From Herminiimonas sp. (GTDB lineage: Bacteria > Pseudomonadota > Gammaproteobacteria > Burkholderiales > Burkholderiaceae_D), in NCBI GenBank assembly GCA_027310305.1, contig DAIDBD010000007.1, positions 62,001 to 126,000 of the forward strand: a stretch of DNA of 64,000 nucleotides. Reading direction: 5' to 3'. Below are positions 55,707 through 64,000 of the stretch, one piece after another (the first letter of the stretch is position 1; each line of letters opens with the position of its first letter). Under the pieces are notes generated by a model. That model did not search any database, was not told the DNA's origin, and saw only the letters and a list, made by a program, of their open reading frames with translations. Position numbers and translations under genes: made by a program.

Positions 55707-56429
55707 TCACGCTGTTTTCAAAAACACCAGATCCCACACGCCATGCCCTAGCCGCAGGCCGCGGTTTTCAAACTTGGTCACGGGCCGATAATCCGGTCGC
55801 GGCGCATAGTCCGCGGCAGTGTTTTGCAACGCAGGTTCCGCCTTCAGCACGGCGAGCATCTGTTCCGCATATTCCTGCCAATCGGTAGTGCAATGCAGAT
55901 AACCGCCCGGTGCGATTCTCGACGCCAGAAGATCCACCAGCGGCGGCTGGATCAGCCGCCGCTTGTTGTGGCGGGCCTTGTGCCAAGGATCGGGGAAAAA
56001 AACATGCACGCCGGCCAGCGATGCCGGCGCGATCATGTGATTCAGCACCTCGACCGCATCATGCTGAATCAACCGCACGTTATCCAATTGCTGTTCGCCG
56101 ATCAGCTTCAGCAGGCCGCCGATGCCGGGCGTGTGCACTTCCACGCCCAGAAAATTCTTGTCCGGCATGGTTGCGGCAATTTTTGCGGTCGAATCACCCA
56201 TGCCGAAACCGATTTCCAGAACGGTCGGCGCGTTGCGTGCAAATGCCTGCGTCAAGTCGAGCGGCGCCTTGCTGTAAGGGATGCAAAATTGCGGCCCGAG
56301 CACTTCGATTGCCCGCGCCTGCGCCGCCGACAAGCGTCCCGCCCGCGTGACGAAACTGCGAATCCGGTGTTCGGTCGGGTCATAGAAAAGGGGCTTGCCG
56401 GACCCGTCTGCGGAATGATTGTCGGACAT
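55707..56429 (-). CDS. trmB: tRNA (guanine-N7)-methyltransferase
   Basis: A 240-residue SAM-dependent enzyme that methylates G46 of tRNA. Motif [21 protein letters not shown], the [17 protein letters not shown] segment with the catalytic Asp-Pro-Trp, and the C-terminal [19 protein letters not shown] are all diagnostic. The gene begins about 30 bases after an intrinsic terminator on the same strand and has little room for its own promoter, so its expression may depend on read-through of the structured region upstream. Confidence 0.95.
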
Positions 56430-56458: not shown

Positions 56459-56493
56459 GAAAACAAAAAAGGCACCGGATGGTAGGGTGCCTT
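56459..56493 (-). terminator. intrinsic terminator just upstream of trmB
   Basis: Read on the minus strand: AAGGCACC, a 9-base loop, GGTGCCTT and then TTTTTGTTT. Stem 8 bp with a long T-tract, the clearest rho-independent terminator in the window. It ends 30 bases before the trmB ATG. Confidence 0.88.
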
Positions 56494-56720
56494 GGTGCGG
56501 CCTGGAGCGGGTGAAGGAAACAGAACACCGCACCCAACCCATTGATTGAAAATAGATTCTTTCTATTCGCCCAATGGGACAAGACCGTATTATGTACCGC
56601 CTAGTCATCCTACGGCAAGTAAAGCTGTCTGCTGGCGTCTTTTGACGTCCACCTACAGCCACCAATGCATGGGCACCGTGCGACTTTCCCTCGGCACTTG
56701 ACTGTGCCAGATAGGCAGAG
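56459..56720 (-). ncRNA. putative structured RNA or leader ending in the terminator before trmB
   Basis: A run of six local hairpins covers about 250 bases and ends with the intrinsic terminator. In plus coordinates the stems are 56693-56708 (GGCAC/GTGCC), 56624-56659 (GCTGT/ACAGC enclosing a TGGCGTC stem with a TTTT loop), 56585-56615 (CCGTA/TACGG), 56538-56578 (CCCATTG/CAATGGG enclosing AATAGA/TCTATT), 56494-56534 (GGTGCGG/CCGCACC), and the terminator. No frame in this region is coding-like. It does not match what I know of RNase P RNA, tmRNA, SRP RNA or 6S RNA. It could be an unidentified small RNA gene or an attenuator/riboswitch controlling trmB. The 5' end is not defined. Confidence 0.55.
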
Positions 56721-56797
56721 CCATGGTCCGCTCGTTCAGGGACGATCCCCCACTGAAATTCACGGTGAAGTTCCCGCATGGCAGCATGCATTGTGCA

Positions 56798-57106
56798 TCA
56801 CTGTTCCTGAATCAGCTCTCCAAAAAGCTCTCGCACCTTAGTCTTTGCGTCGGTCAAGGCGACCCGCCCTTGAGCGGTGATTTCATATACGCGACGGTCT
56901 CGCCGACCCGAGCGCTCGTGGCGGGAGATGAGATAGCCCTTCTTTTCCATGCCGTGCAACATGGGGTACAGCGTCCCTGCGCTCAGCTCATAGCCGTGGT
57001 GGCGCAGCTCTTCGATGATGCCAAGGCCGAAGATGGGCTCCTCGGCCGCGTGGTGCAGAATGTGCAGGCGGATCAATCCGCCATAGAGGTCTTTGTCCGT
57101 CATCAT
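56798..57106 (-). CDS. PadR-family transcriptional regulator
   Basis: A 102-residue winged-helix regulator: DLYGGLIRLHILHHAAEEP, GLGIIEELRHHGYELSAGTL, YPMLHGMEKKGYLISRHE, then RRVYEITAQGRVALTDAK, the standard PadR order. It has only a short C-terminal helix for dimerisation. It is the last gene of the cytochrome-ChrA-PAP2 run (32-base gap) and may regulate that run. Start at the first of two ATG codons (57106). Confidence 0.9.
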   Translation of the reverse strand: MMTDKDLYGGLIRLHILHHAAEEPIFGLGIIEELRHHGYELSAGTLYPMLHGMEKKGYLISRHERSGRRDRRVYEITAQGRVALTDAKTKVRELFGELIQEQ

Positions 57107-57138
57107 TACGTTCTCTGGCGGTTGATCGGTGCTCTGAT

Positions 57139-57741
57139 TCAGCGACGCAACCAGCCCGCAGCGATTGGCCGCGCCAGAAGCGTGCGGTAGAGCATTTCGG
57201 TGAGGTTCGTGCATGGGGTGGCCACTTTTCGCCAGATCGGCGACACAGCCGCATAGACGACACCGGCAACGACGACTGCACCGGCCATGTCCAATGGAAA
57301 GTGCACGCCCAAAAACACTCGCGCCCAAGCCACGCATAGCCCGATCAGCAAGGTGGCTACTCCCCACCCGGCGGTCCCGTCGAAAAGCAGGGTCAATCCG
57401 ACTCCCGCAAACACGGTCATGTGATCGCTCGGGAACGACGAGTCGGCGACATGTGTCATCAGGGCCTGCCCCAACCCGATCATGAAAGGCCTTGGATGGG
57501 GCCAGAGTGCGCAGATAGCTTGGTTGGCGGCTAAGCTGACCAGCGTGACCAAAGACGCCTTTAGCGCGATGCTGCGGCGGGCGTGGTTTCCCCACAACCA
57601 GAAACCCAGCAGCAATAGCGGAATCAGGTAGATCAGGTCGTCAGCGATGCCGATGGCAACCTGCACAAGCCATGCCGGCGTGTCTGCGCCACCGTTGATT
57701 TGAAGGAACCAGATTCGGTTGAGTGTTTCGATTTCGTTCAT
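57139..57741 (-). CDS. PAP2-type phosphatase (undecaprenyl-diphosphatase BcrC-like)
   Basis: A 200-residue membrane phosphatase with five or so helices. The three PAP2 motifs are present: PHPRPF (81-86), SFPSDHMTV (102-110, PSDH as in BcrC rather than PSGH), and ARVFLGVHFPLD (140-151). BcrC-type enzymes recycle undecaprenyl diphosphate for wall synthesis. Why it is placed between ChrA and PadR is not clear from sequence. Start at 57741, 23 bases after the ChrA stop. Confidence 0.88.
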   Translation of the reverse strand: MNEIETLNRIWFLQINGGADTPAWLVQVAIGIADDLIYLIPLLLLGFWLWGNHARRSIALKASLVTLVSLAANQAICALWPHPRPFMIGLGQALMTHVADSSFPSDHMTVFAGVGLTLLFDGTAGWGVATLLIGLCVAWARVFLGVHFPLDMAGAVVVAGVVYAAVSPIWRKVATPCTNLTEMLYRTLLARPIAAGWLRR

Positions 57742-57764
57742 CGTTTCGTGTATCCGTAGATTTC

Positions 57765-58997
57765 TCAAGTAAAACTCACCAGCCACCCAGCCACACCGCA
57801 GCCCACCACCACCAGCCAGGGCGGCAATTTCCAGAACATCAGGGCGACAAAAGCGACGACTGCGATGCCGAAGTCTCGCGGGGCGTGAATGGCGCTCGTG
57901 CATACCGGGTGATAGAGCGCAGCCAATAGCAGGCCGACCACTGCTGCGTTCACGCCCATCAAAGCAGCTTGCGTGCGCACGTTGCGGCGCAGCCGTTCCC
58001 AGAACGGCAAGGCACCCGTTACCAGCAGGAAGGACGGCGCAAATATCGCCAGCAAGCAGACCATGCCACCGATCCAGCCGGACGGAGCGACGTTCATTGA
58101 GGCCCCCAGGAAGGCAGCGAATGTGAACAACGGCCCGGGAACGGCTTGCGCCGCACCGTACCCGGCAAGGAAGGCATCATTGCTGACCCAGCCCGGAGGC
58201 ACGACGGCAGCTTGCAGCAGGGGCAGCACGACATGGCCGCCACCGAAGACCAGCGCGCCCGACCGGAAGAATGCGCTTACGTCTGCGATGGTTTGGTAAG
58301 GCAGCAGCGCGGCCAGCATGGGCAGGCCGATCAGCAGGCCGAAGAACAGCGTCAGCCATAGCACCCCGGCACGGTGGCTGACGGTGACGGGCAGGGGATC
58401 ATTGTCTTTAGCCGGTTCCGGTTTGAACAGGAGAAGTCCCGCGCCGCCAGCAGCAGCGATGATGCCAACCTGACCAAGTGCAGATGGCACAAGCAGGGCG
58501 ACGCAGGCCGCCACGGCCATGACCGTGACCCGAGCTGTGTCCGTGCACAGGCTTCTTGCCATGCCCCAAACCGCCTGCGCAACCACGGCGACCGCCACCA
58601 CCTTGAGGCCGTGCAGCGCACCCGCAGGGATCGCGGTAGCGTGGCTTGAAAGGCCGAGCGCGAAGAGGATCAGGGCAATCGCCGAAGGCAGAGTGAATCC
58701 GGCCCATGCGGCGAACGCACCGCCGTAGCCGTGACGCGAAAGGCCCAAGGCCATGCCGACCTGGCTGCTGGCTGGCCCCGGCAAAAATTGGCAGAGCGCG
58801 ACCAGATCGGCATAGCTTCGCTCGCTCAGCCAGCGGCGTCGATTGACGAACTCATCGCGGAAGTAGCCGAGGTGCGCAATCGGCCCGCCGAAGGAGGTCA
58901 GACCGAGTCGCAGAAATACCAGAAACACGCCCCACACGCTTTCCCGCTGATCGCGGACCTCGGCGACTGCTTGGGTTGATTTGCGAGGTACTGTCAT
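57765..58997 (-). CDS. chrA: chromate efflux transporter ChrA (long-chain type)
   Basis: A 410-residue membrane protein made of two homologous CHR domains, each with a FGGPIAHLGYF- or FGGGHVVLPLL-type signature (about 37 and 250) and CQFLPGPASSQVGMALG or AQAVPGPLFTFAAFLG after it. ChrA expels chromate, and some relatives are linked to sulfate or oxyanion traffic. No ChrB regulator is present. The start overlaps the end of the cytochrome gene by four bases, so these are one unit. Confidence 0.93.
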   Translation of the reverse strand: MTVPRKSTQAVAEVRDQRESVWGVFLVFLRLGLTSFGGPIAHLGYFRDEFVNRRRWLSERSYADLVALCQFLPGPASSQVGMALGLSRHGYGGAFAAWAGFTLPSAIALILFALGLSSHATAIPAGALHGLKVVAVAVVAQAVWGMARSLCTDTARVTVMAVAACVALLVPSALGQVGIIAAAGGAGLLLFKPEPAKDNDPLPVTVSHRAGVLWLTLFFGLLIGLPMLAALLPYQTIADVSAFFRSGALVFGGGHVVLPLLQAAVVPPGWVSNDAFLAGYGAAQAVPGPLFTFAAFLGASMNVAPSGWIGGMVCLLAIFAPSFLLVTGALPFWERLRRNVRTQAALMGVNAAVVGLLLAALYHPVCTSAIHAPRDFGIAVVAFVALMFWKLPPWLVVVGCGVAGWLVSFT

Positions 58998-59482
58998 GGC
59001 TGGCGACCGAGGCTGAATCGCTGGTTGGTCAGCGGTGGGAATGTCGGGCGTTGGATCGAAATGAAACCGTGATCAGTGGCCTGGTGGCAGGTCGTGCAGG
59101 CATGGGAGAGGCTGTCGTAGGCTCGCATGAAGCGGACTGAATCCTTCGCCTCAATCGCCTTTTCGAGTTGCGCGACAGGCTCGGCCGTCATCGGCTCGAT
59201 GATCTTGGCGATGGGCTTGCCCTTGAATTCCGGCTGATACTTCGCCGCATCCTCGAAAGCTTCTTTCAGTTCGTCCAGCTCGAAGGCGGCGAGCGGCCAG
59301 TTCTTGCCCTTCCCGGCGAACCACAGCTTGGCGTGCCGCACCTGAATGGCACTCATGAACTCGCCGAGCCCCGGTGTGTAGGCTTGTACCAGCGGGGTTG
59401 ATGTTTCCAGCTCGGCGGCCGTTGAAACGCTACAGATCAGGGCGGCCAAGATACAAGCTGCTGACGCAAACAACGACTTCAT
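58994..59482 (-). CDS. exported monoheme c-type cytochrome
   Basis: A 162-residue periplasmic protein with a signal peptide (cut near STA-AEL, residue 23). A single heme motif C129-T-T-C132-H133 lies near the C-terminus, preceded by helices (AAFELDELKEAFEDAAKY and similar), a layout recalling class II (cytochrome c'-like) proteins. GGAG precedes the ATG. It is translationally coupled to chrA, which suggests a redox step tied to the transported oxyanion, but this is inference. A large palindrome sits in front of it. Confidence 0.82.
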   Translation of the reverse strand: MKSLFASAACILAALICSVSTAAELETSTPLVQAYTPGLGEFMSAIQVRHAKLWFAGKGKNWPLAAFELDELKEAFEDAAKYQPEFKGKPIAKIIEPMTAEPVAQLEKAIEAKDSVRFMRAYDSLSHACTTCHQATDHGFISIQRPTFPPLTNQRFSLGRQP

Positions 59483-59512
59483 GGAGACTCCATACACGGG
59501 AGGAGCCTCTAT

Positions 59513-59544
59513 ATTATCGTATTTCGTTATCGAAATTCGATAAT
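59513..59544. promoter_or_regulatory. nested palindrome, candidate operator of the cytochrome-chrA unit
   Basis: ATTATCG-TA-TTTCG-TTAT-CGAAA-TT-CGATAAT: a 7-bp outer and a 5-bp inner perfect dyad over 32 bases, AT-rich, ending 31 bases before the cytochrome ATG. There is no T-tract and little GC, so an operator is more likely than a terminator. The binding protein could be the ArsR-rhodanese or the PadR regulator. Confidence 0.65.
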
Positions 59545-59546
59545 TA

Positions 59547-60137
59547 TTAGCCCCACCGCTTGACCGCTCGACCAACCAATCCGAAGTGATAGGGGCAGCA
59601 GCCCCCGAGATCGACGGACTCGACACGGATAAAGCCGGTCTCAACCATCCAGGCTCGGCATTGTTCAGGCGAGGGGCGGATCGACAAAGAAGGGCCGCGA
59701 GGTGTCGGGACATCGCTACGCCAATGCATCACCGATAGGCTGCCGCCGTCTCCCAATATGCGCCACGCCTCGCTCAACAGCGCGACAGGCTCTTCAAGAT
59801 GCAGCAGATTGAAGATCATGGCGTGACGTTGGGAGCCACTATCCAATCCGGTGCCGTCAGCCACAAAATCACGCAGCCCGACGTGGATGTTCGCCAGCCG
59901 GGAGTTTTCCGCTTTCCTTGCAACGGCCTCCACCATCTCCGGCTCGATGTCGAGCGCAGTGACGATGCCCGACACCCTGCGGGCGACCGGTAGCGTGAAA
60001 GTGCCGTAACCGCAGCCGAACTCGATGACGCAGCCAGTTGCTCCATCGCAGGGCATCAAGCGGTCGAGCGCCGCTTCCGGTTCAAAGAACGACGACCAAT
60101 ATGCCTCGTCGGGCATGCCGCTTTCACGTCCTTTCAT
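59547..60137 (-). CDS. class I SAM-dependent methyltransferase
   Basis: A 196-residue methyltransferase with motif I CVIEFGCGYGTFTLPVARRV, then VTALDIEPEMVEAV, and a motif IV-like HAMIFNLLHLEEPVALLSEA. It resembles small-molecule methyltransferases of the UbiE/ArsM style but has no arsenic-type Cys set. The start overlaps the MFS stop by four bases, so it belongs to the ArsR-rhodanese operon. A methyl-sulfur or metalloid product would fit the neighbours but is not shown. Confidence 0.83.
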   Translation of the reverse strand: MKGRESGMPDEAYWSSFFEPEAALDRLMPCDGATGCVIEFGCGYGTFTLPVARRVSGIVTALDIEPEMVEAVARKAENSRLANIHVGLRDFVADGTGLDSGSQRHAMIFNLLHLEEPVALLSEAWRILGDGGSLSVMHWRSDVPTPRGPSLSIRPSPEQCRAWMVETGFIRVESVDLGGCCPYHFGLVGRAVKRWG

Positions 60138-61402
60138 AGCCGCTCGTCCGTGTTTTGTTCTGTTGTTTGTCTGACCAAGGTTTCGTTCATCCGCGCGACA
60201 ACGACCACGCCGGACAGGAAGGTGAGTCCCGCGATCAGCCACACGGCGGCCGCCAGCCCAAACAGGTCGGCGGTGACACCGGCCAAGAGTGCGCCGACCG
60301 CGTAACCGAGGTCGCGCCAGAGCCGGTACATGCCCACGGCCGAGGCCCGCCAGGCGGGATGCGCCACGTCGCCGATGGCGGCCAGCAAGGTCGGATAGAC
60401 CATCGCCGTGCCAACTCCGAGGAAAACGGCACCCGCACCGAAGCCCAGGAAGCCTTTGCTCAATGCCGTGACTGCGATGCCTGTCGCCTGCGTCCACATC
60501 CCCCAAGCGATCAACTGCTTGCGGCCCACGCGGTCGGACAGGGCTCCCGTGAAAATCTGCGTCAACCCCCAAACAGCCGGGTAGATCGCGGCAAGCGTGC
60601 CGATCTGAGCCAAGGACATGCCGGCGGTAGCGAAGACCAGCGGGAATAGCCCCCACGCCATGCCATCGTTGAGATTGTTGACCAGCCCCGCCTGGCTGAT
60701 GCTGGACAGATTGCGGTCAGTGAGCGAGGTGCGACGGAAGATTTCGCCCTGGCTGGGCAACGCATCCTCGTCCCCAGCATGGTGCGTCTGTACTTCATGC
60801 GTCACGTAGTGCCGGGTTTCGCGCACCGCCATGACCGAGAGCGTCAAGCCGAAGGCAACATAGGCGACCCCCAGGTAAAACGGTTCCGGTCGCAGCCCAT
60901 AGCGAGCCGCCAGCCAGCCGGTGGCGAGCGCGCTGCCCGCCACGGCAAAGTAACCGGAAAATTCGTTGAGCCCCATCGCCAGGCCGCGCTGCTTGGGGCC
61001 AACCAGGTCGATCTTCATGATGACCGTGGTCGACCAGGTCAGGCCCTGACTGGCGCCCAGCAAGACGTTGGCGGCGACGATCCAGTTCCAATCGGGTGCC
61101 CACATCAGCACGAAAGGCACCGGCACGGCGATCAGCCATCCAGCAACCAGGACATGCTTGCGACCATAGCGGTCGGATAGCCGGCCTGCGAAATAGTTGG
61201 TCAGCGCCTTGGTGACGCCGAAGACGACGATGAAGGAAAGGATGGCCGCCCGCGCCGCGATGTGGAATTCGTGCTCGGCGATGGCAGGCAGAATGCTGCG
61301 CTCAAGCCCCACCATCGCCCCGACAAAGGCATTCACCAGCACGAGCAGCGAGAACTGGCCCAGGTTCTCGCGCAGCCCAAGGCGGATAGCGACCGTATTC
61401 AC
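60134..61402 (-). CDS. MFS-family transporter
   Basis: A 422-residue protein with twelve predicted membrane helices and the MFS loop motif GRLSDRYGRKHVLVAG (about 73-88), repeated in the second half as GALSDRVGRKQLIAWG. The central loop is charged (about 205-235). It is an exporter or importer of unknown small solute. It stands between the MBL and methyltransferase genes with 3-4 base contacts, so it is co-transcribed with the sulfur genes. Confidence 0.9.
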   Translation of the reverse strand: MNTVAIRLGLRENLGQFSLLVLVNAFVGAMVGLERSILPAIAEHEFHIAARAAILSFIVVFGVTKALTNYFAGRLSDRYGRKHVLVAGWLIAVPVPFVLMWAPDWNWIVAANVLLGASQGLTWSTTVIMKIDLVGPKQRGLAMGLNEFSGYFAVAGSALATGWLAARYGLRPEPFYLGVAYVAFGLTLSVMAVRETRHYVTHEVQTHHAGDEDALPSQGEIFRRTSLTDRNLSSISQAGLVNNLNDGMAWGLFPLVFATAGMSLAQIGTLAAIYPAVWGLTQIFTGALSDRVGRKQLIAWGMWTQATGIAVTALSKGFLGFGAGAVFLGVGTAMVYPTLLAAIGDVAHPAWRASAVGMYRLWRDLGYAVGALLAGVTADLFGLAAAVWLIAGLTFLSGVVVVARMNETLVRQTTEQNTDERL

Positions 61403-61405
61403 GGC

Positions 61406-62143
61406 TTAGATCTCCAATCCGAGATTGAAGCGCACCATGGCATCCATCCCGGCCGGACGCGGCGGAATCTCCCGCGTCAGTTGCTCGATGAAGGCCGCTC
61501 GCGTCATCGTGAGGGCCGGATTCCAGCGCTTCTCGAAACCGAGCGTCGAAGCAGGCTTGCCCGACAGGCCCGCTCCGCAGGCGCTGCCCGCCTGATGTCC
61601 AGGATAGATTTCGATCTCGTCGGGCAACGGCAGCAGCTTGGCGTGCAAGCTGTCAAAGAGCGTGCCAGCCATCTCACGTTCTTGCCCGGCCAGGTCGGGA
61701 CGCCCCACGGCACCGACAAACAGCGTGTCGCCGGTCACGACGAACCAGGGCGCTTCGCCACGCCGCTGGTCCGTCACCAGCAGGCACAGGCTGTCCGGTG
61801 TATGTCCTGGCGTATGCAGCACTTTGATCTTGACGTTGCCGATATCGAGCACCTGACCGTCCTGCAACGGCAGAAAGGCGTGCTTCACGCGGCCGACATT
61901 GGATTCGTGCAGGCAATACGGGGCTTGGATTCGTCGGACCAGATCAGGGCCACCGGAGTAGTGGTCGGCGTGCACATGGGTGTCGATGACATGGGTGATT
62001 TCGACCTTGGCCTCTCGGGCCGCCTCGATGAACCAGTCCTCGTCACCTGCCACCACGTCCACGGCGACGGCCTTGCCTAATCCACCGCAACCGAAGAAGT
62101 ATGACAGGGTTGATTCCTTGGTCGGAAATTGCTTGAAAAACAT
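61406..62143 (-). CDS. MBL-fold hydrolase, persulfide-dioxygenase-like
   Basis: A 245-residue metallo-beta-lactamase-fold protein. Metal ligands are clear: THVHADH (His56, His58, Asp60, His61), HTPGHTPDS and VTGDTLFVGAVGRPDLAG, plus IYPGHQAGSACG. The GRPDL and CGAGLSGKPAST segments recall ETHE1/Blh-type persulfide dioxygenases, which oxidise glutathione persulfide to sulfite, more than glyoxalase II. It lies between DsrE and MFS genes under an ArsR-rhodanese regulator, the typical place of such enzymes. Confidence 0.87.
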   Translation of the reverse strand: MFFKQFPTKESTLSYFFGCGGLGKAVAVDVVAGDEDWFIEAAREAKVEITHVIDTHVHADHYSGGPDLVRRIQAPYCLHESNVGRVKHAFLPLQDGQVLDIGNVKIKVLHTPGHTPDSLCLLVTDQRRGEAPWFVVTGDTLFVGAVGRPDLAGQEREMAGTLFDSLHAKLLPLPDEIEIYPGHQAGSACGAGLSGKPASTLGFEKRWNPALTMTRAAFIEQLTREIPPRPAGMDAMVRFNLGLEI

Positions 62144-62157
62144 CGTCAGTCCTCCCG

Positions 62158-62499
62158 TCAGAACACCAGAACCTTGTCGGCCTCGGCCGTCCAGGCGGTC
62201 AACTCGCTCAAGGTGCTGCGGCGGGTTCCCTCGATAAGTTCATCCGCGTTGATCCCACGGGCATCGAGGCAGGTGCCGCACAATCCCACTTCACCGCCGA
62301 CCATGCGCAGCATGTCGCCCGCGTTGTAATAGCCCTCGGGGACGTGCTGGCCGGTCTTGGCGCAGGCAACGGCGTCTCCCATCAAGAACAGTCGAACCGT
62401 CTCACCTTCACGCTTGGCCAGCGCTTTGGCGAGGCGCAGAGCGTTGTAGCTGCGCTCGCTCCCGTAGGGGGCATCATTGAGGATGAACAGAGTTTGCAT
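62158..62499 (-). CDS. DsrE-family sulfur-relay protein
   Basis: A 113-residue DsrE/F-like protein: TLFILNDAPYGSERSYNALR at the N-terminus, RLFLMGDAVACAK in the middle, and a C74-x2-C77 pair (GLCGTCLDARG) near the loop that carries the sulfur in this family. Such proteins accept or pass on persulfide sulfur. Fourteen bases separate it from the MBL gene. Its start has GGAG upstream. Confidence 0.88.
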   Translation of the reverse strand: MQTLFILNDAPYGSERSYNALRLAKALAKREGETVRLFLMGDAVACAKTGQHVPEGYYNAGDMLRMVGGEVGLCGTCLDARGINADELIEGTRRSTLSELTAWTAEADKVLVF

Positions 62500-62546
62500 G
62501 GCGGTCTCCGGGATCGTTTAGGTCGATGTTTGCTTCGCGCCGTGGC

Positions 62547-63215
62547 TTACTCTGTCGAGGTTTCGATGGGCAAGCCACCGGCGGCCCATTCGCTGACGCC
62601 ATCGCTGATCTTCGTGGCATTGAAGCCGCGAGCGCGAAGTAGCTGCACCGCCTCATCGGACATGAGGCAGAACGGCCCACGGCAGTAGGCGACGATGGCA
62701 CGGTCCGCAGGCAGATCGGCCAAGCGCTTTTCCAGTTCGTCCAGGGGCAACGAGCGGGCGAAAGGCAGATGGCCAGCGTTGAACTCGCTGGTGGGGCGCA
62801 CGTCGATGACGACGATTTCCCCTTGCCGCGCCTTTTCGAGCAGGGTCTCTCGGCGTTCCGAAACCAGGGTGTCCGGCTGTGCCGTCATCTGCGCAAGGGC
62901 GACTTGAAGCTCGACCAGATGCTCTTCGGCCGTTTCCCGCAGCGCTACCCATAGCTGCGACACGTCCCGGCCGCTCAGGCGGTAGTAGATGTATTTGCCA
63001 TCGCGCCGGGTCTCGACCAGCCGCGCCTCCCGCAGCGCCTTAAGATGGGCGCTGGCGAGCCGCATATCGATGCCGGCTTGGGAGGCTAAAGTCTCGACGC
63101 TCTTCTCGCCTTGCGCCAACAACTCAACCAATTCCAGTCGCTTCGGGCTGGCAAGGGATTTGCCGATTCGGGCGACCTGCTCGTAGAGCAGATCCTTCAA
63201 TGATCGTTTATTCAT
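62547..63215 (-). CDS. ArsR-type regulator fused to a rhodanese domain
   Basis: A 222-residue two-domain protein. Residues 1-100 are an ArsR winged helix (RIGKSLASPKRLELVELLAQ, then MRLASAHLKALREARLVETR). Residues 120-220 are a rhodanese domain with catalytic Cys178 in the loop CRGPFC (178-183). Fusions of this kind are thought to sense sulfane sulfur: the rhodanese Cys takes up sulfur and DNA binding changes. It heads the minus-strand operon, and an inverted repeat lies just before its start, consistent with autoregulation. Confidence 0.92.
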   Translation of the reverse strand: MNKRSLKDLLYEQVARIGKSLASPKRLELVELLAQGEKSVETLASQAGIDMRLASAHLKALREARLVETRRDGKYIYYRLSGRDVSQLWVALRETAEEHLVELQVALAQMTAQPDTLVSERRETLLEKARQGEIVVIDVRPTSEFNAGHLPFARSLPLDELEKRLADLPADRAIVAYCRGPFCLMSDEAVQLLRARGFNATKISDGVSEWAAGGLPIETSTE

Positions 63216-63224
63216 ATTAACCCT

Positions 63225-63246
63225 CTAACGATTATTTGATTGTTAG
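63225..63246. promoter_or_regulatory. operator candidate of the ArsR-rhodanese operon
   Basis: CTAACGAT-N6-ATTGTTAG, an 8-bp dyad with one mismatch, ten bases upstream of the regulator start codon. Its size and position fit an ArsR-type operator. Confidence 0.6.
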
Positions 63247-63787
63247 TCAACCCGCAGACTCGGCGAAGTAACGGAGCGGCCGAGGCACCAGAACCTCGGC
63301 CGCTCCCATACTCTTGGGGGTATGGTAAGCGCCGTTATCCACGAGACGCCTGCTTCTATTTCAGTCTGACAGCATTTCCCACCGGTCTCAGCGCGTGTGC
63401 GGACCGGTCGGAACGTACCCAGCCATGCAACATGGCGGCGATCTGCGAACTTGTGGCGAGCACGCTGATAGACCGCATGCACGCCAGCATATGTCAATCG
63501 GGTCTTGCCGAATTCCGGCAACGCAACAACGCTCTCTCCGGTACGCACGTGGCATGCGGAAAGGTTGTTGTTGCGAGATTCCACCGGCCCCGCCCTTGCA
63601 GTCAAGAGCGGATCGGCCCAGACATCTAACTTCCAGCATGGATGGCCCGCGACGATCAGGCCGAGGCAACGCTTGGTGCGCGTGAATGAGCATGGGCATC
63701 GACTCATTCGCTGTTGTTGCGTACGCCCGGAACGCTCAGGTCTTGAGGAGCTTTTGATGTAGAGATTCCTTGTGGGGAGATGGATGC
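63247..63787. other. 540-base gap, no gene recognised
   Basis: Several open frames exist on both strands but none has a ribosome-binding site, a family resemblance or coding-like composition. A small CCATAC/GTATGG hairpin lies at 63306-63325. It may be a degenerate segment of the mobile element. Confidence 0.4.
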
Positions 63788-64000
63788 ATGCACGACAGTC
63801 CACCAGTGTCCAAGGTCTACTATCGACCGATCGAAGCCGCCATACGCTGGGCGGGTTTGTTGAAACACAAGAAAGACATCTTGCGCTTGATAACGTCACC
63901 GAGGCAGATGCCCACGACGCTCAACTTCCCTGGATGGGGCGAGCTACGCCTATGCACCGAGCGTATCTACGATGCCATCTTCAACGGCGAACTCCCGTAC
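63788..64000 (+). CDS. N-terminal part of a conserved mobile-element protein (3' end outside window)
   Basis: Seventy-one codons are open to the window edge. GGGGAG (63775-63780) lies seven bases before ATG 63788. The protein starts MHDSPPVSKVYYRPIEAAIR and continues with a WAGLL helix and GWGELRLCTERIYDAIFNGE. From memory this resembles an unnamed protein common in integrative conjugative elements of Pseudomonas and beta-proteobacteria; I cannot name a function. It suggests that the region to the right is a mobile element. Confidence 0.6.
   Translation, partial: MHDSPPVSKVYYRPIEAAIRWAGLLKHKKDILRLITSPRQMPTTLNFPGWGELRLCTERIYDAIFNGELPY

Follow-up and report, generated by a model that had tools for sequence, protein, structure and literature searches.

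We place the probability at about 0.92 that the segment at 56459-56720 of the window (the whole stretch of 64,000 nucleotides of Herminiimonas sp. DNA that was analysed) forms the junction, on the trmB side, between host DNA and an integrative and conjugative element (ICE) of ~92 kb and of the ICEclc/PFGI-1 class, whose target was the 3' end of a tRNA-Gly(CCC) gene and which carries a putative outward promoter that would drive the integrase once excision has brought the two element ends together in a circle. Read from its sequence, the segment is most likely a composite of the 3' end of the host tRNA-Gly gene, the terminator of that tRNA and the end of the inserted element, and the junction is a fresh instance of an arrangement that is already understood. 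In 5' to 3' order on the minus strand it comprises the PadR gene (ending at 56798), ~270 bp without a convincing gene, the att (56503-56520) and a terminator (56464-56493) whose end lies ~34 nt ahead of the trmB ATG (56429). The presence of an element is indicated by a tRNA 3' fragment and a displaced terminator beside trmB, a complete tRNA-Gly(CCC) and an integrase at the opposite end, conjugation genes between the two, and an element end that is common to other genomes up to att but not past it. The preliminary description had taken the segment to mark the edge of an acquired island, and it was right to do so. The part of the ~92-kb element inside the window spans 56503-64000, and the element continues past the window to position 210412 of C64, the contig that carries the window.

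The att corresponds to the final 18 bp of tRNA-Gly(CCC) (56503-56520, minus strand), and a second copy of its 15-bp core (56503-56517) lies at the opposite, or far, end of the element. In C64:118000-249231 this core, CCTTCACCCGCTCCA, occurs exactly twice, at 118503 and 210339 and both times on the minus strand, and the element length is therefore ~92 kb. The two att copies are identical over the 15 bp and different just before them. The far end carries a complete tRNA-Gly(CCC) (C64:210339-210412), followed at a distance of 237 nt by a 641-aa integrase (C64:208176-210101), both on the same strand as the fragment. The integrase contains the domains PF13356, PF22022 and PF00589, all over cut-off, but with 207.7 bits it falls short of the 434-bit cut-off of its best-fitting NCBIfam model. 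It is matched by 778 records in a plasmid collection, the closest of which, from Pseudomonas veronii, shows 63.8% identity over 94%. Both the insertion in a tRNA-Gly 3' end with short direct repeats and the tyrosine integrase beside the target tRNA are as in ICEs of the ICEclc/PFGI-1 class. The leader between the far tRNA and the integrase is foldable (z -3.59), and the same stretch (L042:12103-12339) contains possible arm-type integrase sites in the form of TCCA repeats spaced by 10 bp and of three copies of GGTACA.

When the element was removed in silico and the host flanks were joined, the resulting tRNA-terminator-trmB site could be aligned over the junction without a break to 6/8 relatives, including locus L010 as the best (277 columns, 85%) and L009 (274 columns, 78%), and in two pieces with 2/8 (L140 and L149). 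Further tRNA-Gly sequence was observed elsewhere. Positions 1-51 of a tRNA-Gly(CCC), its 5' half, stand alone on another contig of the same genome, at C25:6226-6276 (L047, L116), with an upstream flank of host type, like that of the relatives, and C64:211430-211810 (L042, L048) holds an inverted copy of the upstream flank of the far tRNA (C64:211.4-211.6 kb) with the first 52 tRNA bases, after which comes another tRNA-Gly, with the anticodon ccc by ARAGORN. Because of the lone 5' half on C25 and the inverted partial copy beside the far tRNA, the history of the site is more complex than a single insertion. A search for what originally lay upstream of the tRNA, using frames of three relatives on C25 and past C64:210 kb, returned one weak partial match only.

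The host gene beside the insertion is trmB (55707-56429, minus strand; PF02390, 191.6 bits against a cut-off of 24), which is present in 39/40 genomes of the family, our own included. For 29 of the 38 relatives with trmB a locus was obtained (L121-L149), while nine matches were not turned into loci; trmB identity is 71-84% in 28/29 of these loci and falls in the 70-75% band in the remaining one. Considering the available bases, tRNA-Gly(CCC) lies upstream of trmB on the same strand in 20/29 loci, at a distance of <=300 bp in 18/29, and no tRNA was called upstream of trmB in 9/29, one of which (L122) has just 198 upstream bases and a degenerate tRNA end. The terminator motif precedes trmB in six of the 29 loci, five of these also having tRNA-Gly(CCC) upstream. 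Relatives L009, L010, L012, L013 and L031 display the order tRNA-Gly(CCC), GGCACC-loop-GGTGCC-T terminator, trmB, and no sequence resembling the segment was found between tRNA and trmB in these five. ARAGORN, run on 15 loci, called tRNA-Gly in 11 and tRNA-Gly(CCC) in seven. In L135 (G014), another of the nine loci without a called tRNA, a tRNA-Gly 3' fragment stands alone before trmB and by eye represents a separate insertion at the tRNA-Gly(CCC)-trmB site.

The intrinsic terminator at 56464-56493 (minus strand) is that of the tRNA-Gly(CCC) gene, parted from its tRNA by the insertion, and carries the GGCACC-loop-GGTGCC-T motif also seen in the relatives. Its stem AAGGCACC/GGTGCCTT (56486-56493 paired with 56469-56476), 9-nt loop and subsequent T run bear out the strong canonical terminator that had been described on the minus strand shortly before trmB; an automatic terminator scan of the segment reported none, probably since it allows only loops of 3-8 nt. 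As relatives with tRNA-Gly(CCC)-terminator-trmB show a similar gap between terminator and trmB, the short gap is ancestral, and read-through into trmB is possible and requires no new RNA class. Our literature search yielded no paper linking a genomic island, tRNA-Gly and trmB.

Inside the element, matches over curated cut-offs include a MobH/TraI relaxase (TIGR03760, NF041494), TraD (TIGR03754), TraC (TIGR03744), ParB (TIGR03764) and topoisomerase III. The class-specific conjugation and maintenance genes of the ICEclc/PFGI-1 class are thus represented among the core genes scanned, and from its predicted genes we file the element as an ICE of that class. The first gene, on the minus strand like the two that follow, encodes a PadR-family regulator (56798-57103, scanned as frame 56798-57595; PF03551, 67.8 bits, cut-off 27), and the cargo includes a PAP2-superfamily protein (57139-57903; PF01569, 40.9 bits, cut-off 27.2) and a chromate transporter (57765-58997; PF02417, 268.5 bits, cut-off 28.6). 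Further along, a BREX-like cluster at C64:192.2-205.8 kb (L041:14243-19811, L042:2671-7816) comprises matches to BrxA, PglZ, BrxHI, BrxC and BrxF as well as a WYL-domain protein, with a 928-aa frame between BrxC and BrxHI, and a 751-aa protein at C64:186936-189191 (L041:8937-11192) matches the PADLOC E1-E2 and JAB models, possibly as a bacterial ubiquitin-like conjugation fusion.

The end of the element recurs in other genomes. By DNA similarity (E <=0.001) it was found in 15/399 genomes of the order, including our own, and an att pattern built from the window and genome G040 identified 38 loci. In a BLAST comparison of the 110 bp that precede att, 28/38 loci group with the window, further groups have five and three members, and L102 and L104 are single; by eye, L102 resembles other element ends and L104 does not. 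The 100 bp after att, in contrast, fall into 32 groups among 39 sequences, and the right flank of the window matches 0/38. A flank that is shared before att and gives way to unrelated DNA after it has the appearance of a mobile-element boundary. The group of the window includes L114, on tig0000001 of P. bharatica CSV86, with its att at ~274,100. In Castellaniella sp. S9 (L078:1061-1790), an element end, att and an integrase homologue follow each other directly, with no intervening tRNA, the order found in tandem elements or in a circle with joined ends; this homologue (69% over 155 aa) starts ~240 nt after att, compared with the 237 nt from tRNA to integrase in the element of the window.

Several characterised elements share these features. 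The passages on ICEclc of Pseudomonas knackmussii B13 in PMC2892462 and PMC9286271 describe an element of ~103 kb, against ~92 kb here, that likewise has the 18 bp at the 3' end of a tRNA-Gly gene as its insertion site, encodes an unusually long P4-type integrase and has an outward promoter at one end (Pcirc), which in PMC9286271 is a constitutive outward-facing promoter. The cargo is unlike that of ICEclc, with a chromate transporter and BREX genes in the element of the window. ICEnahCSV86 of Pseudomonas bharatica CSV86, as presented in PMC9298801, belongs to the ICEclc family and resembles our element in its tRNA-Gly(CCC) target and 18-bp direct repeat, but differs in its naphthalene cargo and Pseudomonas host. 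Its published border at 274,076 coincides with the att of L114, and the att letters printed in PMC9298801 are one or two bases off those of L114. For ICEKp1 of Klebsiella pneumoniae, PMC13023037 shows that the tRNA terminator is shifted to the 3' end of the element upon insertion, that the tRNA promoter then transcribes into the integrase, and that integrase expression comes from a 3'-end promoter in the excised state; a similar layout and reporter results are given there for ICEclc. The displaced tRNA terminator at the end away from the integrase and the integrase adjoining the tRNA on the same strand are common to ICEKp1 and the element of the window, whereas the target is tRNA-Asn in the former and tRNA-Gly(CCC) in the latter, and the stem-loops tested in ICEKp1 are on the integrase side while the conserved dyad described below is on the promoter side (PMC13023037).

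A candidate outward sigma-70-like promoter, TTGCCG-18-CATAAT, possibly of the Pcirc or P3'end kind, is located at 56589-56618 (minus strand). Of the element ends, 34 were long enough for a promoter survey, 15 were kept after 90% clustering and 14 after leaving out L104. In 12/14 ends, the -10 of the top-scoring sigma-70-like match facing outward stops 65-66 bp short of the att motif; the outward match reaches 9/12 consensus positions in nine ends (shuffle P <=0.05) and is no better than shuffles in five, and the inward strand outscores the outward one in two (L078, L110). Between the promoter and att lies a dyad (56538-56578, minus strand) with outer arms CCCATTG/CAATGGG and inner arms AATAGA/TCTATT in the plus-strand reading. 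The 55 nt before att have a mean fold z of -2.15 over the 14 ends, which are related and hence not independent, and reach z <=-2 in 10/14, versus 1/14, 0/14 and 1/14 ends in three control zones further in; L104, with no shared flank, is outside these counts and has a z of -0.8. One helix was further scored on 16 ends (L095, a near-copy of L093, and L104 excluded; L101, L067 and L077 added; L114 not included). It is paired in 88.4% of 112 cells against a shuffled mean of 80.9 and has a covariation of 0.336, values equalled in 0/500 shuffles each; slid versions reach <=0.142, a comparison biased in favour of the helix, which was picked by inspecting one of the tested ends. Other measures were matched by more shuffles, namely 147/500 for the count of pairs changed on both sides and 48/500 for the pair-type count. 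RNAalifold kept five pairs on the 16-end alignment (-1.64 kcal/mol), and the longest perfect inverted repeat, measured in 13 ends, was at P <=0.05 in five, the window alone being not significant (P 0.13).

Dyads are common in arm-type integrase and excisionase sites, and the conserved promoter-like hexamer and the dyad could mainly be such binding sites in the DNA, resembling a promoter by chance. We consider this somewhat less probable than a promoter, yet a serious alternative: the integrase carries the arm-type DNA-binding domain PF13356, and GGTACA-type repeats flank both sides, with one at the trmB side, ~75 bp inward of att and overlapping the -10, and three between the tRNA and the integrase. 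Arguing for the promoter, a -35-like TTG hexamer at 17-18 bp spacing accompanies the -10 in 9/14 ends, and the dyad arms vary together instead of staying fixed. The binding-site interpretation rivals the promoter step alone, and both roles may coexist.

The preliminary description had interpreted the segment as an RNA gene or riboswitch-like attenuator. The corresponding rival to the junction is a self-standing structured RNA gene or attenuator of 230-270 nt which ends at the terminator and controls trmB. The folding of the segment initially speaks for such an RNA, as the minus-strand fold of 56459-56720 has a z of -3.59 with 1/200 shuffles as good, and only 3/148 random 262-nt windows of the 64 kb are equally extreme, placing it in the top 2%; the structure is thus beyond plain chance. 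Over a 361-nt span the z is -2.83 on the minus and -1.56 on the plus strand. The strong terminator is a further point in favour, as is the lack of a convincing coding frame, on which we agree with the preliminary description. The global fold, nevertheless, is lost in homologues. Its long-range helix (28 pairs) keeps 21/28, 18/27, 19/27 and 18/27 pairs in the four homologues tested (L063, with its att unmatched by the pattern, is absent) and shows compensating changes, two in number, in just one of the four, while local pairs are kept at 36/42, 31/36, 30/36 and 25/40. The failure to match RNase P, tmRNA, SRP or 6S RNA holds for Rfam as well, with no matches in the window at gathering scores and two chance-level matches (E 4.8 and 6.8) around the segment at E up to 10. 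The part internal to the element (56595-56797) has by itself a z of -1.85 with 9/200 shuffles as good, and the terminator and tRNA end occur in the host locus of relatives without the remainder of the segment. Since every other copy of the element end is followed by a different sequence past att, terminator and element never co-evolved. The terminator of the preliminary description and the above-chance folding stand, but the hairpins are not confirmed as one unit; the terminator belongs to the tRNA gene of the host and the rest of the structured part to the element end. For a chimera of host and element sequence, with Rfam negative and the global fold not kept, an RNA gene or attenuator is very improbable. 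We give even less credence to a decayed tRNA gene with its terminator and no insertion involved: the fragment does depart from the tRNA consensus immediately before the last 18 bp, but the differing bases (TGTT) are the element-end bases of other genomes, and the exact repeat at the far end comes alongside a complete tRNA and an integrase.

Taking the segment as the junction of an ICE, all sequence parts of the ICEKp1 scheme are present: the displaced terminator, an outward promoter-like site, att, and an integrase 237 nt past the far tRNA with a foldable leader. By analogy, the outward promoter ~65 bp inside att would drive the integrase once the ends join in the excised circle, probably as Pcirc of ICEclc and P3'end of ICEKp1 do. 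In the integrated state, the same promoter would give a hairpin-rich RNA of ~120 nt, stopped before trmB by the displaced tRNA terminator, and at the far end the tRNA-Gly, without its terminator, would be transcribed towards the integrase. For ICEKp1 the mechanism was measured (PMC13023037), whereas for the element of the window we infer it. The stretch that begins at the predicted start and runs through the terminator (56464-56584) folds with a z of -3.55 into a dyad hairpin, a second hairpin spanning att, and the terminator; the att-spanning hairpin, in which element letters pair with host letters, is probably due to chance. It is conceivable, though we think it doubtful, that the covarying hairpin between promoter and att is an RNA state switch, leading the integrase mRNA in the circle, and that in the integrated state the promoter leaks through the displaced terminator and replaces the lost tRNA-Gly promoter for trmB. 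If this were true, the element would take over the transcription of a host tRNA-modification gene.

What looked like an orphan RNA thereby becomes the exact border of a large conjugative element whose cargo concerns chromate and phage defence. A displaced tRNA terminator can mimic the end of a new RNA gene, and scans for new RNAs should look for remnants of tRNA 3' ends. The layout of promoter, dyad and att is common to many element ends, so that state-dependent integrase expression would be testable across hosts.
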